Origin: Mya arenaria
Lineage: Eukaryota > Mollusca > Bivalvia > Myida > Myidae
Assembly: GCF_026914265.1 (NCBI RefSeq)
Contig: NC_069126.1
Coordinates: forward strand, 78,247,232 to 78,311,231
Reading direction: 5' to 3'
DNA: 64,000 bases
In this document: positions 27,340-64,000 of the stretch, one piece after another
Layout of the letters: the number at the start of each line of letters is the position of its first letter
How positions within the stretch are numbered: position 1 is the first letter of the stretch
Made by a program: the position numbers and the translations under genes
The notes under the pieces: model-generated
What the model was told of the DNA's origin: nothing
The model's database searches: none
Seen by the model: only the letters and a program-made list of their open reading frames with translations

Positions 27340-29112
27340 TGAAAGCATTGTATGAAGGTGGTTTCTCTTTGTACAAAGAAGCTTTTTCGTCTCTATCCAA
27401 ATTATGCTCGTTTGTTGCCTTTATATGTTCGTGATATGTTTGTTTTTGTACAGAGAACCCCAAACGCTGCTCATCATTTTTGAGGTAAACTTACACAAAA
27501 CTCAACAAATGCACTTGACCATATGAATAGGCAAAATAATCTAGCTGTGTGAAGTTAGCTAAACATACGACATTGGACATTGGACATTCAAAATCGAATG
27601 TTGTGCTGGCACGACATTGGACATTCAAAATCGGCAATCTTAAAATTATTTAAAAAGGGTTAGAGATCACAAAAGCAATGACCCATTATAAATTTATAAA
27701 CACCAAGAGAGCATTGCCATTACGATTCCATCGCAATATTTGAAACTTAAGCATGATTCAGATAGACATGATGTCACATATGCAGATAAAGATTCAAATG
27801 AATATACTTATGAATGGTCGTGGATTATATGTAGACAAACAGTGATAATGCTTTCGAAATGGCATACTTTTAATAAGCTTAATTGTTTACAAACCACTGC
27901 TACACATCCAGTACCATTTATAAACGAAGTGAAGATAATTATATTCACAGTATATGATGACATATGGAAAATATACACATGCATTGATGATTCCAAAAAA
28001 TATAAATGTAATCGTTCCTACATCTACTTTATCTGGTTTTACATATTATAACACGAAATATTGTCAATGAGCCGATTAAGCAACCTATTACTGCCTGTCG
28101 GCTTATTTTTTATCGACTCAATTAGTCACAACATTCGATTTTGAATGTCCAATGTCCAATGTCGTGCCAGCAAAAAAATCGATTTTGAATGTCCAATGTC
28201 CAATGTCGTGCCAGCACAACATTCAATTTTGAATGTCCAATGTCCAATGTCGTGCTAGCACGACATTCATTTTTGAAATTCCAATGTCCAATGTCGTGCT
28301 GGCACGACATTCATTTTTGAATGTCCAATGTCGTGCTAGCACGACTTTAACTTTTGAAATCCCAATGTCCAATGTCGTGCTGGCACGACATTCGATTTTT
28401 AATGTCCAATGTCGTGCTAGCACGACTTTCACTTTTGAATGTCCAATGTCCAATGTCGTGCCAGCACAACATTCGATTTTAAATGTCCAATGTCCAATGT
28501 CGTGCCAGCACAACATTCGATGTTGAATGTCCAATGTCCAATGTCGTGCTAGCACGACATTCATTTTTGAATGTCCAATGTCGTGCTAGCACGACTTTCA
28601 CTTTTGAATGTCCAATGTCCAATGTCGTGCCAGCACAACATTCGATTTTGAATGTCCAATGTCCAATGTCGTGCCAGCACAACATTCGATTTTGAATGTC
28701 CAATGTCGTGCTGGCACGACATTCATCTTTGAATGTCCAATGTCCAATGTCGTGCCAGCACGACTTTTAATTTTGAATGTCCAATGTCGTGCCAGCACAA
28801 CATTCGATTTTGAATGTCCAATGTCCAATGTCGTGCCAGCACAACATTCGATTTTGAATGTCCAATGTCCAATGTCGTGCCAGCACAACATTCGATCTTG
28901 AATGTCCAATGTCCAATGTCGTATGTTTAGCTAACTTCACACAGCTAAATAATCTCATCAAAAATGATGGCGGAGCAATAGGACTCACTAAAACTGCAAG
29001 TCAGTTGCTGCGCCTGATGGTGTCTGGTCATGAAGTAGCCAGAGTTGTGCATGAAGTTCAATCGTGCATAAAATGTTTGAAACACGGGCAAAGTAAGGGT
29101 ATTGATATTTGG
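27340..29112 (+). pseudogene. Decayed exon of an unnamed invertebrate family, copy A, split by a transposon
   Basis: One frame reads VVSLCTKKLFRLYPNYARLL.., an in-frame TGA after NAAHHF, then GKLTQNSTNALDHMNRQNN to 27542. It resumes after the inserted element at 28956 with KNDGGAIGLTKTASQLL and MVSGHEVARVVHEVQ. It stops at GIDIW-TAA near 29112, where copy B reads on. The NYARLLPLY..QNN..KNDGGAIGLT..MV.G.EVARVV pattern resembles a widespread uncharacterised, possibly transposon-derived, invertebrate family. That resemblance is pattern memory and was not searched. Confidence 0.55.
27543..28946. mobile_element. Foldback transposon with 9-bp target duplication
   Basis: The element begins AGCTGTGTGAAGTTAGCTAA and ends with its inverted complement TTAGCTAACTTCACACAGCT. 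The terminal repeats match over about 75 bp with one mismatch. It is flanked by AAATAATCT at 27534-27542 and again at 28947-28955. The right arm (28125-28930) is a tandem array of ~35-45-bp units carrying GAATGTCCAATGTCCAATGT and the perfect palindrome GTCGTGCTAGCACGAC. The left arm has about two inverted units. The 480-bp middle has no recognisable transposase; a 103-residue frame at 27740-28051 is unrecognised. A 9-bp duplication with long inverted arms suits Mutator-like or foldback elements. Confidence 0.88.
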
Positions 29113-33990: not shown

Positions 33991-34173
33991 CATTTGCTCC
34001 TTAAGATTATTGTGCCCTGAAGGTAAATCTCGTCCTACGAATGTGACATGAATCTAAGTAACGAAATCCTGACTTTCTAGCAAACAAGTAGGTTATTTGT
34101 GTAAATGTGACCTCCGCAGATAGGCGACACAATCTGTGTTAAACATCACAGTGAGGAGTTTGATCACAGGAAT

Positions 34174-34941
34174 ATGCGAAACATGAACAACTTAAATCTT
34201 GCTGGTAAGAAATTTCTTGTCACGGGAGCGGGGCGAGGGTTTGGTAAAGCAATTGCTAAAGCTCTTGATGCAAATGGAAGCAAAGTGTATGCAGCGAGCA
34301 AAAGTGTTGATACCTTGGATGCATTAAAAGCAGAGAACCCTTCGGTACATACCATCGCTGTTGATTTGTCTAACTGGGATGAAACAAGAACCAAACTTGC
34401 CAAAATCGAGCCACTGTATGGTCTTGTGAACAACGCGGGAATTTACAATACTTCTGATCAAGCCAGTGATACTTCAAGAGATATGCTTTATTATAAGTTT
34501 ATTGATACAAATCTTATGAGCGCTATTAACTGCATTCAGATCGCAGCAAAGGGGATGATCAAGATTGGCAATGGTGGATCCATCGTGAACAGGTCATCTA
34601 TGGGATACTTACACATTCCACACCCACCTTTGTACCAGATGTCATATAATTTAACAAAAGCAGCCCTTGACCAAGTCACAAGAGAATTTGCCGTGGAACT
34701 AGGGCGCTATAAAATACGGGTAAACTCATTAAATCCTATACTTGTGCGAACTGACATGACGGAGCATTTGTACCAAATGCTACCAGAATTAGCCGAGGAA
34801 TTAGGGACTGCAATACCTCTAAAAGAACCACCAACTATCAATAGCATTGTAGGTCCGGCGTTGTACTTCCTAAACGATTTGTCAGGTTTTGTGACGGGGA
34901 CTGTTAACGTTATTGGTGGTGGACTTACAAAAAGTTTTTAG
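34174..34941 (+). CDS. Short-chain dehydrogenase/reductase, L-xylulose/carbonyl reductase-like
   Basis: This is a cytosolic-type NAD(P)H oxidoreductase of the classical SDR superfamily, 255 residues, near the family's ~245-250. Visible motifs are the cofactor loop TGAGRGFG (17-24), VDL (63-65), NNAG (86-89), the helix Asn in FIDTN (113), SS (141-142), and the catalytic YNLTK with Tyr158 and Lys162 leading into AALDQV. The substrate-loop start is NPILVRTDM. The order and the C-terminal IGGG most resemble dicarbonyl/L-xylulose reductases, but the substrate is inferred. Two starts are possible, 34174 and Met4 at 34183; I use the first. ATCACAG/GAAT at 34168 could be an acceptor to a 5' non-coding exon. 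The coding region has no intron. An AATAAA lies at 35099. Confidence 0.9.
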   Translation: MRNMNNLNLAGKKFLVTGAGRGFGKAIAKALDANGSKVYAASKSVDTLDALKAENPSVHTIAVDLSNWDETRTKLAKIEPLYGLVNNAGIYNTSDQASDTSRDMLYYKFIDTNLMSAINCIQIAAKGMIKIGNGGSIVNRSSMGYLHIPHPPLYQMSYNLTKAALDQVTREFAVELGRYKIRVNSLNPILVRTDMTEHLYQMLPELAEELGTAIPLKEPPTINSIVGPALYFLNDLSGFVTGTVNVIGGGLTKSF

Positions 34942-44154: not shown

Positions 44155-47100
44155 TTATATCAGTCCACCAGTTATCCCCCTGTCTTTGAATATCAGGATT
44201 GCGAAGATGATTAACGCCAACTGAAATGTAAACAATACAACACAGCGTAAACCTCCGTATTCCAACAACATGAAGCCCCTTGACAGTTTTGCTCAATGTA
44301 AAACTAGCTACATGATTCCTCGAGACAGTAACCGTTGGCTGGGTGCAAATAATCAGCACGTCAAAATGGTAATGTTTACTACATATGATATGTACGCGAT
44401 TCCTCGCAATTAATTTTAATCATTAAAGTGCTTTTGTGTGGCTAAAGGTGTCCATGCAACGTTAATTGATACTGTACATAACATTTCCGAATGATTTCCC
44501 TGGTTACTAGGCGACATAAAACGTTTGAACCGCCGCGTAATTTTGAAAGGACAGTTCGAATTGAAACAGCAGTGTTCATTTCAACTGACTTGATATATGA
44601 AATTTTGTTTTGTTTTCGATCATACGATTTAGTTAATTTCTGTTCAATTTTTCCCGATAAGAAATATCGAAATTGTTCACTGGCTATTGACACACATAAG
44701 CAGTTTTACTTGTTTCAATGGTCATCAAGCGCTTTAATTTGTTAGTGCTTACTACGTATACTAGTTTGGCTCGGTGTAGAACTAGCTATAAGAAGTGACC
44801 ATCGGGACAGTAACAGCTGCATGTACAAGCTACCAATGTTTATATTGAGGGGGTCATAAGCGAATATCCACACAGGTGACCAACCATTGACGTTTTGGTG
44901 AGGAACGGTCATATTGAATACTCCATTTAGCCCAAATTTAAAGGGACTAGACAACAGATGATACAAATGAAAGGAAATAAAATTGTCAAAAACTGACATT
45001 GAATTGATATCATTCTGTTCAACGCATTGAATCGTACTTACTGATGAATCACATCGCTTACGACACATGCGTCTATCGCAGTTTTTTGCGCATTTTTGCA
45101 ATTCGAATTTGACTGGAGTTGCCTACCACGTAAATCCCAGTAAGGTTTAAAACAGCGTACGTATAGTTATCTGTACTCATAAACAGACATGATTTCAACT
45201 GGGGATACCAGTATGCTTTATTTTCAAACGGGGAGACAGTAAACTTGTTGCGTGTATCATTTTAATCACGTAAAGTGGCCTTTACTTGCTCGCATTGGCA
45301 ATTCTAGACTCGTTTTAAGGAAATACTGTATTAATTTTGCCGATTATCGGACCATCTGGTGTCTAGTCTATTTAATAAATAATGTCAATGTTAAATTATT
45401 AAATTTACCCTTTGGACATACATTTAATCTTTAAGAATTGTCATGTGAAAGCAATTTTAAAACTAATCTAGTTGCGCTAAGGAGTTGTGGAAGTAAAGTT
45501 ACCTGAGCACCGAGACAAAATTTTATAACTGGGATGTATTTCGCATTTTGGTCGTTGATAACTGATTTCCAGAGAGCGTCGGTGCAACCCTTAAAGAAAA
45601 AGTATTCAATCAAAACGTGTACAAATAAATATTTAATTACAAAAGAAAACGGCGAATAATAAGCGAGGGAAAATATTGACTTTGTAGTGGGTGGTTTCAA
45701 CACACCACATTTGACATTTTGTAAAAAAAAACATGGAGGAATATTTGAAACCATGTCAACATTTCCAAACGCCAAAGTACATATTTAACTTCATATTAAC
45801 TGGACACCCTCCGAAATAATACAAATACATTCTGCAATAAAGGTAATTCAAAAGCACAAAACGCTTCGAAAGTACAAAATAACCGTTTTTATTTTACCGA
45901 ATATATTGGCTGTTCATTGACAGAAAGTTTAGCACTGCAAAGACTAAGAGAGCGACATTCTACTTATATACGTGTTTTCAAAGAGTCGTTGTCGTACATA
46001 CATTATTAAGGTTCGACAGGCTCTCAATCTCTGCTGTCGTGTCGTAGCTGGTATCAGTCGCGTCCCCAGCACACGCAGACTTCCCGGATGTGTCAGAGGG
46101 TAGTGTCTTGCAACATGTAGTAGGTGTCAGGTTGTTTACGCCGTCCGTGCTTGATGTCTTCCAAGTCCCTCGGTTTTCAAAATCGGCATAGTTATTAGCG
46201 CCACAACAACTGTACTGTAGTATAGTCAAGATATTAGCATGATCATATACTTAAGCCCTAGTGACTTCTTTGTGCTACCGGCCGTATGTAAGCTGTACAT
46301 TAACAGATGAGAAAATGAAGAAAATGACAACAAAAATCTACGGATAAAGAATATTGAGTTTTGATGTACGCCTTTTAAAACACTACATATTTATAAAAGT
46401 ATTCCATATCGTGCCAAACTTTCGTTATGATAAGCTTAATCTTCGTGTGCGACGCGAAATTAATAATAACCATCGGCGGTTTTAAAGTATATCGTCACAT
46501 CAATATTATTTATCAAGTACCGAGAACAAAATACTCTAATATTCAGCGTATCTTTCCGCTAGTACACGTTGCTTGGGAACAAAATAATCAAATATTCCGC
46601 GTGTCATTCCGCTGGTACCCGTTGCGCCGGGCACAAAATACTCAAATATTTCCGCGTGTCATTCCGCTGGTACCCGTTGCGCCGGGAACAAAATACTCAA
46701 ATATTTCCGCGTGTCATTCCGCTGGTACCCGTTGAGCCGGGAACAAAATACTCAAATATTTTCGCGTGTCATTCCGCTGGTACCCGTTCTTTGGGAACAA
46801 AAAACTCAAATATTCCGCGTGTCATTCCGCTGGTACCCGTTGCGCGATCAAAATAATAGAGTGAATGCGTGGGTCCAAAACCAATATAGGAGTACAGGTT
46901 CCGTTATGAATGAATGGTTCACTTAGTCCTCGCTTTACACGAGTTTAGCTACTAGTAGCAGGTACACATTTCTGATATTGCAAGAATGCCCTACTGGTTG
47001 AGTTTGTAAATCCGAACAGTTTTGACAGTTTTTTAACAATATTTTTGCGAGTTTGGGTTCCAGTAACTTCAAACATGGCATTAATAATGTTTGGTTCAAA

Positions 47101-50100
47101 CCTCAGCCTCTGCTGAAGTACACATTCACAAAATAGTTTGATTCATAAACGCAAAACGTTCATTTCAAGCACAGTAAATCACCATTCAATCGGTAAAATG
47201 GAGTATACAAACCCCGATCGCTTTTAAAATTATATTTTATCTAAAAATAGATTGCTATTCCGTCATAGTTTGTTCTCATTTCTAATCAAACACACAATGG
47301 AAAGGGGATTCAACTCGAACAGAATCTAATCTTAGAAAATTTGAGTTGTGTCCCTTGCTTCAAAAATCTAAGAACATTCCTTACCCATGATATTGATTAC
47401 AGTGCGATTTAAAATCTGTGACGTCATTCCCCGCGTGCTGCATATTTACATTTCACCTGATTAGGAGTTTGACAGGGATTTATAATAAAAATACTCAACT
47501 AAACTTGACGAAAATTTGCATTCGTTGCTAAGGCAAGCGTTTGTATCGATCTAGATCATCGAATTATTGATCGAGGTAAACAAACGCGTGATTTAACATG
47601 TGTTCGGTATTTATGACTGTTCGGATTTACAAACTCAACCAGTATGGTTCGAAAGATGAAATAACACATTTATTTGCAAGTTAGAGTAACATTCTATTTC
47701 GAAAATCATTGCCACTGCGCGGAAAAAAACATAGTTCCTCTTTGAAACTTGATCTTCATTATTCTTTTTGCTACTGGACTTGTTCCTGTAGTCTTCATAT
47801 TATAATTAAAACGAAATTATACTTTTAATTGAATTGTTTATGTTGAAGTTATTAGGACGCGAATATGTCGGATAAATTAAGGGTGACTATTTAGAACGGA
47901 CGGTGGTATTTGAAAGGGACACGTTTGCGACACACAGGCTTTCTTATGAAAATAAAATGCGTGTATTAAATCTTGAACAGGGAATGAAACCATATAGCGT
48001 GTATAAATGGCATGTTGAGAAAGTCTGCCATGAGCGCTACTGGTATTTACAAAGCGCCCGAAAAAAAATAAACATTGGGCTATATTTCAGTTATGTTTGT
48101 TTAACTGGTATAATTTATCAATGTTCTATTTTACTTGCATTTTTTCTTGATTATACAATTAAGGTTTTAAAAGTATGAGATTTCAAACCTGCTGCATTGC
48201 GAAATTCCAGCCCATAGAAGTCGTCGTTGTTCCACGAAGTCCTTCATATTTGTCTATTGAATCAACCAGTTTGCTATTCAGGTGGGTTTTGAACTAAAAT
48301 ACAATGGAACCATTTTGTTTTAAACCTTGAATGAAATCGCTACGTTGGTATTCTGTAATTTAGCCTTTAAGATGGTAAGATATGCTTAAATATATTCAAA
48401 ATTATAAAAATATTGATTGACATCAATATCACGAGAGTTATTTTTACGTATGAATTCAATATTGAAAAAGGTAATTGGATAAAATGCAATTAATCAAAAT
48501 GTTCGTAATAAAATAGCAAAGTTTGTATAACTTACTGTGTCTGGAGACGCATATATCAGAATAATTAACACCACTTGGCCCAGAAATAGAGCAATCAATA
48601 TGATAGCGTACTGAAAGAAAACAAAAAAAATAACATTCAATTAATTTGTTTCTATCAAAAGTACAAACATAATCGATGAATTGGTTGATTGTCATATTTA
48701 GAACGACCAAAAGGCTAAAGAATACGAGATTATACTGACGTGATAGTGTTATTATTAATGCAGAGATCCAGCGAATATATAGGCTCATAAACTGTAAAGA
48801 CATAACAAACTCTACCTGGTCTGAGCAAATTACAGTACTAGGACATACTAATGTTTCAAATAACACCAAGTCATGTTTCATATACTCAGAATGTTCTACA
48901 ACACAAAAACATAAATGAATATTTAAATTTATAATACATATCATATAATGTAAGTACGTTCAAGTAATCTGAGCGTACTTAAGCATAAACGTACCACAAG
49001 TGCAAGTGTGCTGATGTTGCAACAGGCACTAAAGCATCCCAGAAATGAGACAGCAAGCAAGGCAAACCCAACACAGATCATGGCAATGGCGAGGTCACTG
49101 ACCAGGGCAGAGTAGTCGAAGTCGTCCAGGTTGAAACTTGAGTCACCTGTAGACAGACATGATAGTTTACATATAAAACAAGCCATGTTCACAGTATGCA
49201 TTACAATTGACTGTATAAGTATTAAGTGGAAAACATGGCAAACTTTTACAGAGTCGATAGCGAGGTCGTTGAACAAATAAGAATAGATATAATGCTCTCC
49301 AGACTGAAAGCTATGTCCGCTGGAAAGTTCTGATCAAATACGCCATGATCAAAAACTCTGATTATCAAATTAAATATGATTGTCATACATCAAGGGAACG
49401 AAAAGATATGAAAAAGAGAAGGGCTAACCCGATACAAATCATGACACTGGCGAGGTAGAGATAACCCGACACAAATCATAACACTGGCGAGGTAGAGATA
49501 ACCCAACACAAATCATGACACTGGCGAGGTAGAGATAACCCGACACAAATCATGACACTGGAGAGATAAAGATAACCCAACACAAATCATGACGTTACAG
49601 AGGTAGAGATAACCCGACACAAATCATGACACTGGCGAGGTAGAGATAACCCGACACAAATCATAACACTGGCGAGGTAGAGATAACCCGACACAAATCA
49701 TGACGTTACAGAGTTAGAGATAACCCTACACAAATCATAACACTGGCGAGGTAGAGATAACCCAACACAGATCATGACGTTACAAAGGTAGAGATAACCC
49801 GACACAAATCATGACACTGGCGAGGTAGAGATAACCCGGCACAAATCATGACGTTACAGAGGTAGAGATAACCCGACACAAATCATGACGTTACAGAGGT
49901 AGAGATAACCCGATACAAATCATAACACTGGCGAGGTAGAGATAACCCGACACAAATCATAACACTGGCGAGGTGGAGATAACCCGACACAAATTATTAA
50001 ACTGGCAAGGTAGAGATAACCCGACACAAATAATGACACTGGCGTGGTAGAGATAACGCGACACAAATCATGACACTGGTGAGGTAGAGGTAACTAGACA

Positions 50101-53100
50101 CAAATCATGACACTGGCGAGCTAGAGATAACCCGACACAAATCATGACACTGACGAGGTAGAGATAACCAGACACAAATCTTGACACTGGCGAGGTAGAA
50201 ATAACCCGACACAAATAATGACACTGGCGAGAAAGAAATAATCCGACACAAATCATGACACTTAACCGATAGAGAAAACCCGACATCAATGATAACAGTG
50301 GTGGGAAAGAGATAACCCGACACAAATCATGACACTGGCGAGATAGAGATAACCCGACACAAATCATGAAACTGACGAGGAGGAACAGATAACCCGATAC
50401 AAATCACGACACTGGCGAGGTAGAGATAACACGATACAATTCTTGACACTGGCGAGGTAGAGATAACCCAACACAAATCATGACACTGGCAAGGTAGAGT
50501 TAACCCGACACAAATCATGACACTAGCGAGGTAGAGATAACCCGACACAAATCATAACAGAGGCGAGGTAGAGATAACCCGACACAAATCTTGACACTGG
50601 CGAGCTAGAGATAACACGACATCAATCATGAAAGTAGCAAAGAAGGATCAACCTGACACATAGCATGACACTTGCGAGGTAGAGATAACACGACATCAAT
50701 CATGAAAGTAGCAAAGAAGGATCAACCCGACACATATCGTGACACTTGCGAGGTAGAGATAACACGACATCAATCATGAAAGAAGTGGAGAAGGATCAAC
50801 CCGACACATATCATGACACTGGCGAGGTAGAGATAACACGACATCAATCATGAAAGTAGCGAAGAAGGATCAACCCGACACATATCATGACACTTGCGAG
50901 GTAGAGATAACACGACATCAATCATGAAAGTAGCGAAGAAGGATCAACCCGACACATATCATGACACTTGCGAGGTAGAGATAACACGACATCAATCATA
51001 AAAGTAGTGAAGAAGGATCAACCTGACTCATATCATGACACTGGCGAGGTAGAGATAAACGGACAAGAATCAGACGATCTTGACGAAGGGCTTACCCGTC
51101 ACAAATCATGACAATATTGAGGTAGTACTTAATCGAAACAAATCAGACGATCTCGACGGAGGGCTAACCCGCCACAAATCATGACAATGGTGAGGTAAGG
51201 CTCAACAAACATACATCCTGGTATAAGCGACGCAGAGCTTACCCGCACAAATAATAAAAATAACACTCCAACGAGAATCACGACAATATTGAGGTAGGGC
51301 GAGCTTATATAATAACGATATATTTGAGTAGAACAATGCGTCGTTAGACTTACACATGAGAAAGTAAAGTTTCAGTGTTGCTGTAAAAATGGTTCCGACA
51401 ATGTTAATTTAACTGCTCTTAAGGTAATGTATTTGATTGTTTTGGCAATATGTCCTTGCTTGGATGTTTTGATTCCTGGTGTAAGTATGACCTATAAGGA
51501 GAGACTTGAGGGAAGTTCGTGAGTCAATCGCTATTTTTATCGATGACGCGAATTCGCCTTCGCATTCTGCTCATATTTATGATAATAAACATGGATAATG
51601 CAACAATTTATGGACTTCGAATGGCAAACAACTAGTTGCTGAAGTAGCTGTCTAGATAGATTGGAAGGAAGTGTTCTTTGCTTCACGCTTATCCTCATGG
51701 TTCTTTGAAGAACATGAGAACCAAGTTCCTGAATGCTTCTGGAGCGTGAGTAAAGTAAGATAATTCAATGTATTTAAAAGTAAACACGTTTTACCAGTTT
51801 TCTTTTGGTCACGTGAAAGTAGTTTCGAGATTACACACGGTACTCACATGATACGGAATCAGAAAACGACAGCATCATGATACGTATTTTCTAATACCAC
51901 GTGCTGTATTTTCACTGTTGGATATGGAAACTGAATTTGATAGCCATATAATAAGGTCATTTATTCCCTGCGCACACTTACTTTAAAAGGAATGTTATAT
52001 AGTATTGGCTAATCCATACTTAACTCAATACTACGGAAAAACTAATAGCATTCGAATAAAGTCAATACGAACACAGAAAAGGTTTTTAATAAAGATAAGA
52101 AACTAAAAATAAGTCCGTTTTCTTGAACGTACAAAATAATCCTACAAGTGCAATCCAGGATTTGACTAACACTTTATAAGCATCAGTACAAACACAGCAC
52201 ATCAAAATCATAAATTGGGTCGATGGTTAATTAAAAAAGACACCATTCCATACCCAAGTAATAACAATAGCAAGGTAGTACTAACTGAAGAAAACAGCGT
52301 TCCAACGAGAATCATGACAACATTGAGGTAGGGCTAGCTAGACAAAATGATTGTAATGACTAGGTAGGGATACAAGACACAAATCAAGACAAAAAGAGTG
52401 GTAAACTAACCAGACACAAATTCTGACAACAACTAGTCGGGGTAACACGACACCAATTTTGACAACAACGAGGTAGGATAACACGACACCAATTATGACA
52501 ACAACGAGGTAGGGTAACACGTTGCTAATTCTGAAAACAACGAGGTAGGATAACACGACACAAATTATGAAAACAGCGAGGTAAGGTAACACGACACCAA
52601 TTCTGACGAAAACGATGTAGGGTTACACGTCACCAATTTTGACAACAACGAGGTAGGATAACACGAAACCAATTTTGACAACAACGAGGTAGGATAACAC
52701 GACGCCACTTTTGACAACAACGAGGTAGGGTAACACGACACCAATTCTGACAACAGCGAGGTAGGGTAACACGACACCACTTTTGACAACAACAAGGTAG
52801 ATTAACCCGACACCAATTCTGACAACAGCAAGGAAGGGTAACGCGACACCAATTCTGACAACAGCAAGGAAGGGTAACGCGACACCAATTCTGACAACAG
52901 CATGGTAGGGTAACGCGACACCAATTCTGACACCAGCGAGATAGGTTAACACGACACCAATTTTGACAACAACGATTTAGGATAACCCGACAACAATTCT
53001 GACAACAGCAAGGTAGGGTAACACGACACCAATTCTGACAACAGCGAGGTAGGTTAACACGACACCAATTCTGCCAACAACGAGGTAGTGCAACACGACA

Positions 53101-56100
53101 CCAATCATGACAACAGCGAGGTAGGGTAACCCGAAACCAAGCATGGCAACAGCGCGCTCGGTAGGGTAATCAAACGCCTATTATGACAACGGCGAGGTAG
53201 AGTTATCCGACACCAATTCTGACAACAGCGAGATAGGGTTACTCGACACCAAGAATGATAACAGCGAGGTATAGTTATCAAACGCATATCTTGACAACAG
53301 CGAGGTAGGGTAATCACACGCCTATCATGACAACAGCGAGGTAGGGTAATCAGACACCTATCATAACAACAGCGAGGTAGGGTAATCAGACGGCTATCTT
53401 GACAACAGCGAGGTGGGGTAATCAGATGCCTATCATGCCAATAGCGAGGTATGTAATCAGACGCCTATCATTACAACAGCGAGGTAGGGTAATCAGACGT
53501 CTATCATGTCAACGGCGAGGTAGGGTAATCAGACGCCTGTCATGACAACAGCGAGGTAGGGTAATCAAACGCCTGTCATGACAACAGCGAGGTAGGGTAA
53601 TCAGACGTCTATCTTGACAATAGCGAGGTAGGGTAATCAGACGCCTATGATGACAACAGCGAGGTAGGGTAATCAGATGCCTATGATGACAACAGCGAGG
53701 TAGGGTAATCCGACGCCTATGATGACAACAGCGATGTAGGGTAATCAGACGCCTATGATGACAACAGCGAGGTAGGGTAATCAGACGTCTATCATGTCAA
53801 CGGCGAGGTAGGGTTATCAGATGCCTATCATGACAACAGCGAGGTAGGGTAATCAAACTCCTGTCATGACAACAGCGAGGTAGGGTAATCAGACGCCTAT
53901 GATGACAACAGCGATGTAGGGTAATCAGACGCCTATCATGTCAACAGCGAGGTAGGGTAATCAGACGGCTATGATGACAACAGCGATGTAGGGTAATCAG
54001 ACGCCTATGATGACAACAGCGAGGTAGGGTAATCAAACTCCTGTCATGACAACAGCGAGGTAGGGTAATCAGACGCCTATTATGACAACAGCGATGTAGG
54101 GTAATCAGACGTCTATCATGTCAACAGCGAGGTAGGGTAATCAGACGCCTATCATGACAACAGCGAGGTAGGGTAATCAGACGCCTATCATGACAACAGC
54201 GAGGTAGGGTAATCAGACGCCTATCATGACAACAGCGAGGTAGGGTAATCAGACGCCTATGATGACAACAGCGAGGTAGGGTAATCAGACGTCTATCATG
54301 TCAACAGCGAGGTAGGGTAATCAGACGCCTATCATGACAACAGCGAGGTAGGGTAATCAGACGTCTATCATGTCAACAGCGAGGTAGGGTATTCAAACGC
54401 CTAACATGACAACAGCGATGTAGGGTAATCAGACGCCTATCATGACAACAGCGAGGTAGGGTAATCAGACGTCTATCATGTCAACGGCGAGGTAGGGTTA
54501 TCAGATGCCTATCATGACAACAGCGAGGTAGGGTAATCAAACTCCTGTCATGACAACAGCGAGGTAGGGTAATCAGACGTCTATCTTGACAATAGCGAGG
54601 TAGGGTAATCAGACGCCTATGATGACAACAGCGAGGTAGGGTAATCAGATGCCTATGATGACAACAGCGAGGTAGGGTAATCAGACGCCTATGATGACAA
54701 CAGCGATGTAGGGTAATCAGACGCCTATGATGACAACAGCGAGGTAGGGTAATCAGACGTCTATCATGTCAACGGCGAGGTAGGGTTATCAGATGCCTAT
54801 CATGACAACAGCGAGGTAGGGTAATCAAACTCCTGTCATGACAACAGCGAGGTAGGGTAATCAGACGCCTATGATGACAACAGCGATGTAGGGTAATCAG
54901 ACGCCTATCATGTCAACAGCGAGGTAGGGTAATCAGACGGCTATGATGACAACAGCGATGTAGGGTAATCAGACGCCTATGATGACAACAGCGAGGTAGG
55001 GTAATCAAACTCCTGTCATGACAACAGCGAGGTAGGGTAATCAGACGCCTATTATGACAACAGCGATGTAGGGTAATCAGACGTCTATCATGTCAACAGC
55101 GAGGTAGGGTAATCAGACGCCTATGATGACAACAGCGAGGTAGGGTAATCAGACGCCTATCATGACAACAGCGAGGTAGGGTAATCAGACGCCTATCATG
55201 ACAACAGCGAGGTAGGGTAATCAGACGCCTATGATGACAACAGCGAGGTAGGGTAATCAGACGTCTATCATGTCAACAGCGAGGTAGGGTAATCAGACGC
55301 CTATCATGACAACAGCGAGGTAGGGTAATCAGACGTCTATCATGTCAACAGCGAGGTAGGGTAATCAGACGCCTATCATGACAACAGCGAGGTAGGGTAA
55401 TCAGACGCCTATCATGACAACAGCGAGGTAGGGTAATCAGACGCCTATCATGACAACAGCGAGGTAGGGTAATCAGACGCCTATCATGACAACAGCGACG
55501 TAGGGTAATCAGACGCCTATGATGACAACAGCGAGGTAGGGTAATCAGACGCCTATTCTGACAACAGCGATGTAGGGTAATCAGACGTCTATCATTTCAA
55601 CGGCGAGGTAGGGTAATCACACGCCTATTCTGACAACAGCGATGTAGGGTAATCAGACGACTATTCTGACAACAGCGAGGTAGGGTAATCAAACGCCTAT
55701 CATGACAACAGCGAGGTAGGGTAATCAAACGTCTATTATGTCAACAGCGAGGTAGTTTAATTAAACGCCTATCATGACAACAGCGAGGTAGGATAACCAA
55801 TCGTCTATCATGTCAACAGCGAGGTAGTTTAATTAAACGCCTATCATGACAACAGCGAGGTAGGGTAATCAAACGCCTAACATGACAACAGCGAGGAAGT
55901 GTAACCCGACACCAAGCATACCAACAGCTAGGCAGGGTAATCCGACACCAAGCAAGCCAACAGGTAGGTAGGGAAACCCGACACCAAGCATGCCAACAGC
56001 GAGGTAGGGAAACCCGACACCAAACATGACAACAGCGAGGTATGGAAACCCGACACCAAGATGACAACAGCGAGGCAGGGTAATACGACACCAAGCATGT

Positions 56101-59100
56101 CAACAGGTAGGTAGGGAAACCCGACACCAAGATGACAACAGCGAGGTAGGGAAACCCGACACCAAGCATGTCAACAGGTAGGTAGGGAAACCCGACACCA
56201 AGATGACAACAGCGAGGCAGGGTAATACTACACCAAGCATGTCAACAGGTAGGTAGGGAAACCCGACACCAAGATGACAACAGCGAGGTAGGGTAATACG
56301 ACACCAAGCATGTCAACAGGTAGGTATGGAAACCCGACACCAAGATGACAACAGCGAGGCAGGGTAATACGACACCAAGCATGTCAACAGGTAGGTAGGG
56401 AAACCCGACACCAAGATGACAACAGCGAGGTAGGGTAATACGACACCAAGCATGTCAACAGGTAGGTAGGGTAACCCGACACCAAGATGACAACAGCGAG
56501 GTAGGGTAATACGACACCAAGCATGTCAACAGGTAGGTATGGAAACCCGACACCAAGATGACAACAGCGAGGCAGGGTAACCCGACACCAAACATGTCAA
56601 CAGGTAGGTAGGGAAACCCGACACCAAGATGACAACAGCGAGGCAGGGTAACCCGACACCAAACATGTCAACAGGTAGGTAGGGAAACCCGACACCAAGA
56701 TGACAACAGCGAGGCAGGGTAATACGACACCAAGCATGTCAACAGGTAGGTATGGAAACCCGACACCAAGATGACAACAGCGAGGCAGGGTAACCCGACA
56801 CCAAACATGTCAACAGGTAGGTAGGGAAACCCGACACCAAGATGACAACAGCGAGGCAGGGTAATACGACACCAAGCATGTCAACAGGTAGGTATGGAAA
56901 CCCGACACCAAGATGACAACAGCGAGGCAGGGTAATACGACACCAAGCATGTCAACAGGTAGGTATGGAAACCCGACACCAAGATGACAACAGCGAGGCA
57001 GGGTAATACGACACCAAGCATGTCAACAGGTAGGTAGGGAAACCCGACACCAAGCATTCCATCAGGGAGGTAGGGAAACCCGACATCAAGCATGACAACA
57101 GCGAGGTAGCGTAACCTGACACCAAGCATGACAACAGCGCGGTATGTTTACCCGACATTAAGCATTACAACAGCGCAGTAGCGGGCACCTATTATGACAA
57201 CAGCGATGTGGAACTTGCAAACAATCATACCCGTGGAACTTACCTGATAAAAATCATGACAAAAGCGAGCTGGTGCTAACACCACACACATCGTGCCAAT
57301 AGCGAGGTGGTGCTAGCCCCACACACATCGTGCCAATAGCGAGGTGGTGCTAGCCCCGCACAAATCGTGACAATAGCGAGGTAGTACTGCCGCACACAAA
57401 ACATGACAATAGCGAGGTGGTTCTAACCCGATACCCAACAGAAATTAAGACAATCGAGCTTTAGTTTTAACTTGATAACTGACGTTTTTTAAGACAATAA
57501 AGAGGTCGCTTACAAAAACTGATCTATTTGACCGATAATATGTGTATTTGATCAATGTCAAAATTTAAACCTGTATTTACATTAGGCTCTTACGCTTTGT
57601 CATAAAGAAGTGTGGTTTAGTAAAATTATTTAACTATACTTTTGCACCTCTACGTAACCCTCTGAACGGTAAATGTTTATAGTGGATTTTAAAATTGTAT
57701 TTGAACAATGGCCATGTGTTATGTGTATCGTTAAAATGGACGTACGTTATTATAGTAGTACTTGGCTATATAGTGCATCTTATGCACCAATCAAGTGTAA
57801 CCACGACCACCATCCAGGGCACGGGTTATATCGGGGATAGCCGGTAAAATGGGCCGTGTTTTTACCTCCCAGGTGGCCCTGCAGTGCCGGGTGGGCCTTA
57901 CCTAGGGTCTCTGGGGGCGGAGGCACTTGGCGGGGATTTTACCAGCAGTTCGCCCCCGCATGACGGGTTTTACCCGGGCTTTGCTGGCCCGAAATTCAAA
58001 TTCCCCGCTATTCCCCCGGGGGCTTGATTACAATTGACTGATGCATTATCGTACATTTGAACTAGTTTAAACTTACTATAAACGCTTTGGGCAGCATTTT
58101 CAATATCATCAAGAACGCTTTCGATCCGAGGTCTAAGTACTTCATTTCCAAATTTCAAGATAAAGCCCCCGATGATCAGCGCCAGAGATGTAAGCTGTGA
58201 AGTATAACACACTAAAAGGTTACTAATATATTGACCCTCGGCAAAATATACCGTATAATTCATACCAACTATAAATATAGCATGCACTGCATGAAAAAGA
58301 AGGATTGAATATTTTAAAAGCAGAAAATGTGCTACAAGTTTCACATAGGCCAGACAAAGATTTATTTTAAATACTTTTGACTATAAAAATACACCAGATT
58401 GTACAGTTTCAATGTTTCTTCCGTATTGATTTATTTATATATTATTTATTCATGTATTATAAAAGGAACACGATACGGACACTTATTATTCCCTGCTCAC
58501 ACTTACTTTAATTAAAAGGAATATAAATACATCTTTGTTCAACCCGAAACTATAAGCAATCGGAACGAACACTTTACAAAGTTAATTAGAAATTAATATT
58601 CCGTGTACTTGAGTTTATTAAACCAATCTTTAAATGCGATCTAGGGTTACACTTATGCTTCATACACATCATTTAGTAAAAAAAAAAAAAAATCTTGTCT
58701 ATCTTCTCTATTGACACGTTGCGGTCCATATCGTCCGGTTTTCACACGTAATAGAAAACAGTTGAGTTGAATTTAGAATACAACCTATATTTACAGCCAA
58801 TGAACTTTTTAGATAGCCAATCATTAAGTACTCGGCTAAATCATTAAGAATTTTAACTTTCGATGGTGTTTAAAGATCCGCCCACTGCAACTCATCCGAT
58901 ACACAACCTCTGCGTCAGATTTTGCGCTGAAATTATGTCAGCCAATGTCGTTGAGTTCTATGTCAGGTAGATCACAGGAATTAAAATATTGAGACTAAAG
59001 AAGGACTAGTTTGCTTTGTTCACTCCGCCCATTCTTAATCATTTATAATTTAATTCATGTCATCTTATTATAGCGTACATTGTGTCGACGGTTTGTTAAA

Positions 59101-59222
59101 GACATATATCACTACTCCATGCCCAAAACATTTCAATAAAAGTAAATAGAAACAATACTAACGATGAAAATGATGTTTAGAACGACCAAAACAATCCTGC
59201 CCACGAATGTTAGCGCTCCCAT
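44155..59222 (-). CDS. Tetraspanin 1, complete, 8 exons
   Basis: This is a four-pass membrane organiser protein. Exons on the minus strand are 59222-59163, 58194-58077, 49146-48995, 48610-48536, 48293-48189, 46214-46002, 45589-45503 and 44220-44155. All phases agree and give 291 residues. The N-terminus MGALTFVGRIVLVVLNIIFI joins exon 2 to form TM1. TM2 is AMICVGFALLAVSFLGCF in exon 3. TM3 is AIILIALFLGQVVLIILIYA in exon 4. The large loop has YSCCGANNY (CCG at 173-175), TTCCKTLP, an SACAG cysteine and GCTDALW. TM4 with a short tail, FKDRGITGGLI, closes the protein. Exon 1's donor is GTTAGT, weaker than the rest. Intron 2 (58076-49147, 8.9 kb) is mostly minisatellite resembling exon 3. Partners and function cannot be told. 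Confidence 0.9.
44936..45374 (+). mobile_element. Inverted-repeat element, family C (full copy)
   Basis: The left end TTTAAAGGGACTAGACAACA and the right end TGTCTAGTCTATTTAA are inverted copies with mismatches. Interior blocks match 3264-3598 and 13350-13692 in reverse. It lies in tetraspanin 1 intron 7. Confidence 0.75.
46500..46855. repeat. ~55-bp tandem repeat (6 copies) in tetraspanin 1 intron 5
   Basis: The unit contains GTGTCATTCCGCTGGTACCC, then GTTGCGCCGGGAACAAAATA and CTCAAATATT. Copies are well conserved. GC content is higher than the flanks. Confidence 0.9.
46994..47642. mobile_element. Tc1/mariner-type MITE (TA target site)
   Basis: CTGGTTGAGTTTGTAAATCC..GAACAGT at the left is mirrored by ..GGATTTACAAACTCAACCAG at the right, and each end abuts TA (46992-46993 and 47643-47644). 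The element is 649 bp with no transposase and lies in tetraspanin 1 intron 4-5 territory (between exons 6 and 5). Confidence 0.8.
49420..51310. repeat. 37-bp minisatellite resembling tetraspanin exon 3 (block 1)
   Basis: The unit contains ATCATGACACTGGCGAGGTA with a preceding AACCCGACACAA. From about 50600 to 51050 the array switches to a 74-bp higher-order dimer in which one half reads ATCAATCATGAAAGTAGCGA. The unit at 49611-49641 matches exon 3 at 49065-49095 at 27 of 31 positions, same strand. The array begins 275 bp upstream (gene sense) of that exon. Confidence 0.93.
51650..51965 (+). repeat. Dispersed repeat, family D (second copy)
   Basis: It is reverse-complementary to window positions 1-335 and separates the two exon-3-like minisatellite blocks. 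Just beyond it, TTATTCCCTGCGCACACTTA recurs in similar form near 58488, hinting at further duplication within the intron. Confidence 0.7.
52255..57445. repeat. 36-bp minisatellite resembling tetraspanin exon 3 (block 2, ~5.2 kb)
   Basis: The unit contains GACAACAGCGAGGTAGGGTA followed by a variable half. Sub-blocks are: 52320-53150 with AACACGACACCAATTCT; 53150-55870 with ATCAGACGCCTATCAT; 55880-57060 a ~71-bp dimer with AACAGGTAGGTAGGGAAACC; 57270-57430 with TCGTGCCAATAGCGAGGTGG. In gene sense the units read YLAVVMIGV or LAIGTMCVGLA, recalling exon 3's LAIAMICVGFA. Minus-strand frames of up to 124 residues in it are artefacts of the 12-codon period. Confidence 0.93.
57790..58047. mobile_element. 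Inverted-repeat element, family F (copy in intron 2)
   Basis: The left end CACCAATCAAGTGTAACCAC and right end GATTACAATTGACTGATGCA are diverged inverted repeats. The interior shares GGGCCTTACCTAGG and TTGGCGGGGATTTTACC with 6293-6450. It ends 30 bp from the exon 2 donor of tetraspanin 1. Confidence 0.75.
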
Positions 59223-61533: not shown

Positions 61534-63460
61534 TTACACAAGCCCACCCGTGATGCCCCTGTTTTTGAAGATCAGGATAGCGAAGATGATCAAGACAAGC
61601 TGAAATATAACAAAACAACCTATAACAGCAGTCACCTATCTAAAGGATATAAGTTTAAATGTACGTTTTGAAATGAACGTCAGTCGCAACAAAAAGCGAG
61701 GAGGAAGTAAGCTCGGACTTGCGAACGGAAATACACACGAACTGTTTATATTGTTGTAATGGACTAATGAACTGTACATTATAATTGAATAGTTAATGGT
61801 TCACTATTTATAACTTCATCTGAAACGATAAAGTTTTATTTAGATATAAAATTATGCTATATATGTTTAATATGAAAATTGAAACTGGGAATTACTACCT
61901 GACATATCAGAACGACCACGATTACTGGAATGAATCTTGCATTGTTTTCATTGATGACAGAGTCCCATATTCCATCTGTGCAGCCCTGAAAACAGAGAAA
62001 AGTTAAAATCACCCTTAAAGCTGCTCTCTTACAGAATTACCATTTTTACAAAAAAAAAAATATTTTGTCTTTGAAAGAGCAATTTGTGATAAAAGATTAC
62101 TGACAAAAGATCAGATTTTCATATTTCCGTTAGAAATTAATGTTTTATGGCTTAAACATTTACTAACGGTTTAAGGAAAATGCATAAAACATCAATTTTT
62201 GAATTTAAATATTGAAATCTGCGATCTATTTTTTTTTTCAGCAGTCTTATATAACTGGTTTCCATGGATGTTCGCAAAAATTGGCTCGTGTCAAGACAAA
62301 ACATAACAAAGTTGTCAAAACGTTCAATCTGTGAGAGTGCAGTTTTTTTCTGAGAAAGAATCTATTATTTCATTATTCGGAACAGAGCTGATTCCAGTAT
62401 TTCACTTATGCTGTCGTTTTATAACATTATTGATTGGTACTATACAACATTGTAAACTGTAAACTACCCATAAAAACGACCATCTGTTTTTTATGATATC
62501 CAATGTCGCCATCGACAAAATAAGTCAATATAAAAGTATAAAAATAACACATAATAGTAATACCGTAAACAAGTTGGATTCACTTTGAATTTCACTTGTT
62601 GAATCATAATTTGTATCAGAGTTCTTTCCAGCGCATTTTGCCGCCGCGGTGCTATCCTCTGGAAGGGTCTTGCAGCACGCCACTGGTGTGATGAGGTCTG
62701 TTATTCCGTTAGTTTCGTCGTATGCCTTCCACGTTGTACGCGAAGTAAAATCGGTGTAATCATTGGCACCACAGCAGTCAAACTGAAGATATGAATGTTT
62801 CATTTATAACGACAAGGGAATATATATAATATATGCAGTCGAAGTGTTCTGCATTAGGCAAAAGAAAATCGAGTAAGAAAATTTAAATGGAAAACATGAA
62901 TTAGTTATGTTCAATGGTTCTAGTGTATTATAATTTAAAGAAGATTTTCTTTCTGAGCAATTCAATTTCCTTGAATCTTTTTGGCAAATCAAAACAACCT
63001 TACGGCATTTTTAGTAGACTTATGCAATCATAGTATACCTGTTGCATTGCATAGTTCCATCCAATGGACTTGGTATCTGTTGCTTTCAAACCTTGGTAGC
63101 CGTCTAAAGTGGTCACAAGCTGCTCATTTATGTATTTCTTTAGGACCTGAAAATGTATTTGTCATCGCTTTCGAAATGTGTGCACCAATAACATTAAATG
63201 TTACTAAACTTCACTTATCGTATTTACTTTGCACAGATCTACATCAACAGCAATAACAATAACAGCAGCATCACACTATGATTAAAACACGGAGGGTTTA
63301 CCACCGAAACAAAAACATTCCTGTATTTAATGCCATAATCATGATCAGGGTGTTTTAACCCTTGAATGAGGTAACAGTTAAATACCTTTCCGGGAACAGC
63401 ATATACAAGAATGATGAGCGTCACTTGTGCCAGAAATATAGCGATAAGAACAATAGCGTA
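61534..63460 (-). CDS. Tetraspanin 2, last five exons (5' end outside window)
   Basis: Minus-strand exons are 63460-63386 (TM3, AIVLIAIFLAQVTLIILVYA), 63146-63039 (start of the large loop, ending NYAMQQ), 62782-62564 (FDCCGANDY, ACCKTLP, AKCAG), 61985-61899 (GCTDGIWDSV..) and 61599-61534 (TM4, FKNRGITGGLV, stop). They are in phase and give the last 184 residues. Sizes 75, 108, 219, 87 and 66 compare with 75, 105, 213, 87 and 66 in tetraspanin 1, so the genes are tandem duplicates. The N-terminus, TM1 and TM2 should lie beyond 64000. Exon 62564 uses donor GTATTA, which is weaker than usual. Confidence 0.9.
62015..62345. mobile_element. MITE family A (copy in tetraspanin 2)
   Basis: It starts TTAAAGCTGCTCTCTTACAG and ends ATCTGTGAGAGTGCAG, with the family's A-run near the left end and the CTGCGATCT-like interior reversed relative to 15029-15411. 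It lies in the intron between exons 62564 and 61985. Confidence 0.75.
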
Positions 63461-64000
63461 CTGAAAGGGAAAACATCACTTACTTACATTACAGTTGCGT
63501 GGGATAATGTTAATTCAAAATCTTTACAACAGCTGTATTTGTTGTCTGGTTAATTGTTTCATTTCGCGAGTACACCAGTGATCAGTGTGTTTATACCACG
63601 TGACAAATTACGTATTAAGGTACGTCAGAAGGTAACACTTTGGTTCGAATGAAGACATAAAACAAAGATAACTTTACCTTTTCTTCACCATTTGATAGGA
63701 AACAAAGGGCAGTTTATTCCAGCCCCGCCTTCGTTATGTTACCGGAATTTAGTTTAGATTAGTTTCTTTTAACACTTCGACAAATCTGTTTCCAAAATAA
63801 TGTGTTGGCAGTGCTCCATCGGTCGAAGTGTTTTAGAAACTAAACTCTCAATCAAACTCTAGTAAAACACCAAAAAGCGGGGCGCTTTAAGTGGCGTATA
63901 ATGATGAGCTATGTTTCATTTGAATTTTTGTTGAATGTCTTCATTCAAAGCCTTCCGACTAAGCATTTATGACGCAATTTAGCACGAAGTATACCCACAC
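63461..64000. other. Intron or 5' region of tetraspanin 2
   Basis: No further exon matching TM1 or TM2 was found before the window ends. The sequence is ordinary AT-rich DNA. Confidence 0.5.

Follow-up and report, generated by a model that had tools for sequence, protein, structure and literature searches.

A minisatellite in intron 2 of a tetraspanin gene of Mya arenaria and its probable origin from a fragment of the gene's own exon 3

The second intron of a tetraspanin gene of Mya arenaria (hereafter T1) contains a large minisatellite of about 190 repeats that is homologous to a fragment of exon 3 of the same gene, lies on the same strand as that fragment, occurs at a single locus in this genome and consists of several sub-families. 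The sequence makes it very probable that a fragment of exon 3 was copied into the gene's own intron 2 and was then expanded as a minisatellite. A piece of at least 34 bp, located within TM2, would have been copied in the same orientation to a point upstream of exon 3 in the gene sense, and this copy would then have expanded head to tail. Subsequently the array would have split into sub-families and grown by duplication of dimers and of larger (972-bp) pieces, to reach its present state, in which a dispersed repeat lies in a spacer of 945 bp. We infer that the copying preceded the tandem growth, and that the growth proceeded by slippage or unequal exchange.

The window, by which we mean the whole stretch of 64,000 nucleotides that was analysed (C5:78247232-78311231), is part of a genome of 1.216 Gb in 18 contigs. 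T1 is encoded on its minus strand and was modelled by means of open reading frames, Pfam and comparison with paralogs (Table 1). Exon 3 matches Pfam Tetraspanin with E 4.8e-5 (residues 15-48 of 51, 23.6 bits) and the large extracellular loop exon with 22.6 bits, both under the whole-protein cut-off of 32.1 bits; since single exons score under this cut-off, the gene call is based on the paralogs and on the exons as a set. When T1 exon 3 was used to search the genome at the protein level, 11 matches were obtained, five of which were used for site comparison: T1 itself, T2 and T3, which adjoin T1, and T4, which is present twice. This comparison did not include the six weaker matches (E 1.6e-4 to 0.82), whose loci score 14-18 against the T1 arrays. 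Intron 2 of T1 measures approximately 8.9 kb, of which the arrays make up about 7 kb. The corresponding introns of T2, T3 and T4 measure about 0.35, 0.68 and 0.54 kb, and an array-like score is absent from them among the matches listed.

A number of further observations concern these genes and their surroundings. Three related tetraspanin genes form a minus-strand tandem cluster, which covers 45978-59222 and 62525-64000 of the window as well as loci L002 and L003. The T4 exon 3 protein and its 34-bp segment are found twice on contig C5, at 5097839 (L030) and 77675936 (L031), some 72 Mb apart and in opposite orientation, either by duplication or as an assembly artefact. The window also contains a short-chain dehydrogenase in a single open frame (34111-34941; Pfam adh_short_C2, E 3.2e-37).

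Table 1. Features of T1 and of the arrays in its second intron (window positions)
Feature	Position	Strand	Remarks
Exon 1 of T1, coding part	59160..59222	-	contains MGALTFVGRIVLVVLNIIFIV
Exon 2 of T1	58077..58194	-	
Exon 3 of T1, TM2 region	48995..49146	-	Pfam Tetraspanin and match to exon 3 of three other genes
Exon 4 of T1, TM3	48536..48613	-	limits approximate
Large extracellular loop exon of T1 (part)	46020..46214	-	Pfam Tetraspanin, E 9.6e-5
Probable founder segment inside exon 3	49062..49095	-	34 bp matching array unit of 37 bp
Possible extra exon-like flank at left array edge (weak)	49404..49422	+	
Sub-array A	49423..51303	+	37-bp unit; degenerate right end
74-bp dimers within sub-array A	50610-51053	+	
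Spacer between A and B, not array	51310..52254	.	945 bp
Dispersed repeat in spacer	51502..51954	.	~450 bp
Sub-array B	52255..57445	+	36/37-bp unit; blocks B1, B2, B3 and right-end block
Head-to-tail duplication inside B	53489..55432	+	972 bp, 27 units, 962/972 identical

Two sub-arrays, A and B, can be distinguished. Both are made of head-to-tail units of 36-37 bp, inside the range of 10-100 bp that characterizes minisatellites, and TRF called them as 49425-51197 and 57251-57429 with a 37-bp period and 52413-57144 with a 36-bp period. Alignment with wraparound to a hand-typed consensus resulted in 198 unit rows (53 in A and 145 in B), a count that includes partial rows. Block B3 of sub-array B is built of 71-bp dimers. 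The array extent given in an earlier note on this DNA holds for the two sub-arrays, and the stretch between them is no array; a dispersed repeat was found in it. Copies of this repeat that are 80-84% identical occur on many contigs among the matches listed (1157 first-look candidates, 40 of them scored, the window itself included). The spacer is flanked by two copies of one and the same unusual unit variant, as compared by eye, and A and B were therefore probably once a single array. The 99% identity of the 972-bp duplication suggests, for this one assembly, recent array growth.

The arrays are bracketed, inside intron 2, by a 14-bp exact direct repeat (ATTACAATTGACTG) at 49200-49213 and 58027-58040, which is absent elsewhere in the window; among 1000 pairs of stretches taken at random, 5 attained a length of 14 bp. 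It could mark the boundary of a duplication or insertion, or could be due to chance. Judged by eye, its right copy seems to form the end of a stretch that resembles a mobile element.

The match between exon and array had been noted as 27 of 31 identities between exon positions 49065-49095 and the unit at 49611. We recovered this value, found the same at 49796, 50465 and 50798 (all + strand), and identified the unit at 49500 as the best single one (28/31, + strand). Two further observations of the earlier note were likewise reproduced: an exact copy of the segment's initial 18 bases is found in a unit near 49764, where the row starting at 49756 contains AACCCAACACAGATCATG, and units at the far end of the array read LAIGTMCVGLA in the gene sense (57343-57311). 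The exon origin that it proposed is supported, with the correction that the shared stretch is better given as the 34 bp of Table 1, which start three positions earlier; the array copies lie on the same strand as this segment. An ancestral unit, obtained as the vote of eight block consensuses and not as a full phylogenetic reconstruction, is identical to the exon segment at 29 of 34 positions. Single blocks match it at 22 to 29 of 34: the right-end block of B is best (29), followed by the main part of A (28), the left end of B (26), the degenerate right end of A (25) and the derived blocks B2 (23) and B1 (22).

By local alignment exon 3 scores 25 against the arrays, and the runner-up among 1506 tile scores is 18. 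The exon's two tiles also rank first of 1094 tile scores when A is taken alone (25, next 18) and when B is taken alone (24, next 16). A shuffled-sequence control had been proposed in terms of 27/31 counts; performed by local alignment score instead, with 2000 dinucleotide-shuffled exons, it reached at most 19 and thus not the observed match.

Genome searches with four units of A and six of B, using a DNA search that skips very common words, found one place each, namely T1 intron 2. Hence the same minisatellite was not found away from a tetraspanin in the clam's own genome, and A and B do not have the many loci of a dispersed satellite or transposon-borne repeat; of the intron's array region, the spacer alone contains a dispersed repeat. 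The DNA search located T1 exon 3 itself a single time in the genome. A 26-letter pattern that merges the letters of exon and unit, and that the exon therefore matches by design, was also searched genome-wide, allowing up to three mismatches. It gave 42 matches, 38 of which are at the T1 locus (37 in the arrays plus the exon itself), and its reversed control gave none genome-wide. Each of the four matches elsewhere has three mismatches. The idea that these are other tetraspanin exons proved wrong for all four: one lies in the reading frame of a receptor of the rhodopsin family (Pfam 7tm_1, E 2.1e-6, 27.9 bits at a cut-off of 30.5), two are near-copies of one another with stops in their reading frames, and the last is a different, 49-bp minisatellite that occurs at one place on contig 13 (L042). 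The score of the latter's consensus against the T1 exon is within background.

The paralogs allow the source gene to be identified. Compared with the 29/34 of T1, the segments of T2, T3 and T4 match the ancestral unit at 21, 22 and 19 of 34 positions. The ancestral unit carries the exon state at all 14 sites that are conserved across T1-T4 and the T1 state at all five T1-unique sites; since the latter is in large part a consequence of the 29/34 identity, it names the source gene and is no separate proof. Four of the five mismatches between exon and ancestral unit are at codon position 3 (p 0.029), three are synonymous, and all five are at sites that vary among the paralogs (p 0.056). Because voting removes many mutations of the array from the ancestral unit, these remaining, mostly synonymous differences are plausibly changes of the exon that took place after copying. 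A FastTree phylogeny of T1-T4 and 123 distinct units (from 192 of the 198 rows, six with more than three gaps having been dropped) places T1, on a branch of zero length, at the base of the clade formed by all array units (support 0.94), in a tree that rests on 34 sites and is weak within the array.

Chance resemblance between the exon and an unrelated minisatellite is very improbable. Among many diverse units some random match is to be expected, and ten other arrays, tested likewise, include two AT-rich ones of the window that reach 26 and 23 with distant tiles, while a different minisatellite in L002, just outside the window, scores 22 against the T1 arrays and the 49-bp minisatellite of contig 13 scores 18 against the exon. 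The scores of 26 and 23 stem, however, from long gapped alignments of low identity; one of these two AT-rich arrays has an exact separate unit copy nearby and the other an edge unit. Under this loose scoring the alignment score by itself is not unique, whereas the dense ungapped match to the exon is: in uniform random sequence amounting to both strands of the genome (2 x 1.216 Gb), a given 34-mer should find an ungapped 29/34 match 0.0006 times. The match moreover lies only about 330 bp from the array and on the same strand, both sub-arrays pick the same exon, and the mismatches lean to codon position 3. We give equally little credence to the reverse direction, in which the exon segment would have been taken from, or overwritten by, the array. 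T1-unique states common to array and exon could arise either way, but the array also has the state shared by the four tetraspanin paralogs at 14 of 14 sites, which makes it tetraspanin-derived in any case. The T1 segment is identical to T2 and T3 at 22/34 positions each, compared with 70/119 and 80/119 for the rest of the exon; it is hence not more diverged from them than the rest of the exon, and there is no sign of the array overwriting it. With respect to T4 it is somewhat more diverged (21/34 versus 83/119). Gene conversion from the array into TM2 would be possible in principle, but no trace of it is seen in the T2/T3 comparison. Paralog site states, mismatch pattern, tree and segment divergence, taken in combination, point from exon to array, and the paralog exons thereby bear out the earlier proposal that the exon is the source.

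A variant of this preferred explanation is that the array grew inside a duplicate of the whole of exon 3, which we regard as unlikely. It would account for the left edge of the array, where the match extends to exon position 49041: exon 49041-49095 aligns with 49404-49456 with score 27, and of 2000 random stretches 1.65% gave an extension past the unit that was as good (p about 0.017). Against it, no exon-3-like stretch is seen outside the arrays, the best scores being 11 in the spacer and 9-12 in the right flank. Extension tests at the right edge gave p 0.05 and 0.17, and neither the spacer nor the right edge of B shows significant exon-like remains. The unit corresponds to 49062-49095 only, and does not comprise the whole exon with its splice sites, as would a tandem exon duplication; that the splice sites are outside the unit, as had been stated before, fits an exon that runs from about 48995 to about 49146. 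The shared stretch is limited to 34 bp, and the outer edges of the founder are not firmly seen. A short direct repeat internal to the exon was considered as a seed for slippage and was rejected as weak and unconvincing: p is 0.06-0.07 in comparison with the ancestor and with A, and 0.006 in comparison with B2 and B3.

Copying of the exon fragment followed by tandem growth is the explanation that we retain. The array is probably an ordinary, neutral minisatellite, and presumably acts mainly as intron filler that is spliced out. Of the possible effects suggested in the earlier note, on splicing, on RNA pairing and on recombination with the exon, pairing at the RNA level between the array and exon 3 is improbable, given the sense orientation of the copies.

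Minisatellites abound in this genome: 324 kb sampled (the window and loci L002-L027) contain 38 arrays with a length of 250 bp or more (merged, period 15-150). Twelve of these have a unit-like match in their 2-kb flanks that is clearly above the null, eight of them at most 200 bp from the edge of the array and four further out; sub-array A with its exon is one of the latter four. Unit-like matches near arrays are hence not unusual in this genome. In the window a 44-bp minisatellite (28127-28922) has a 65-bp exact inverted copy about 500 bp away, at 27567-27631.

The 6-16/G1P3 gene reportedly has a minisatellite at an exon region that repeats the splice donor. The T1 array is likewise found at an exon region of a gene, but its unit lacks splice sites and it is wholly intronic. 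The origins of minisatellites are described, in the portion of PMC3389668 considered here, as very difficult to study. The same portion presents their birth by slippage at short separated repeats, with reference to Taylor and Breden 2000 and Haber and Louis 1998, and describes tandem repeats derived from transposable elements. As far as that account goes, slippage-born minisatellites and the T1 array both turn unique local DNA into head-to-tail repeats and have incomplete or degenerate end units, whereas the T1 founder is a recognisable coding fragment and convincing seed repeats are lacking. With repeats derived from transposable elements, as outlined there, the T1 array shares an identifiable parent sequence, which is however a coding exon, located a single time in the genome by the DNA search, instead of a mobile element. 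Intron minisatellites of fish genes are mentioned in PMC3045353, in the considered part of which no exon origin was noticed. Nor was any report of a minisatellite derived from its own gene's exon noticed among the titles and starts of abstracts listed, which is weak evidence of absence.

Because the founder is a coding exon and three paralogs are available, source, strand and direction can be read in this case. It is a tentative, rather doubtful generalization that short local fragments, exons included, which are copied nearby and tandemly expanded are a general source of private single-locus arrays in this minisatellite-rich genome; if this were true, the T1 array would be a case with a recognisable seed, its exon having been kept readable by selection. 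The seed of the T1 array appears to be still recognisable, and the age of the copying could be tested in related bivalves. In T1, coding DNA would have fed the growth of an intron, to the extent of most of its present length.
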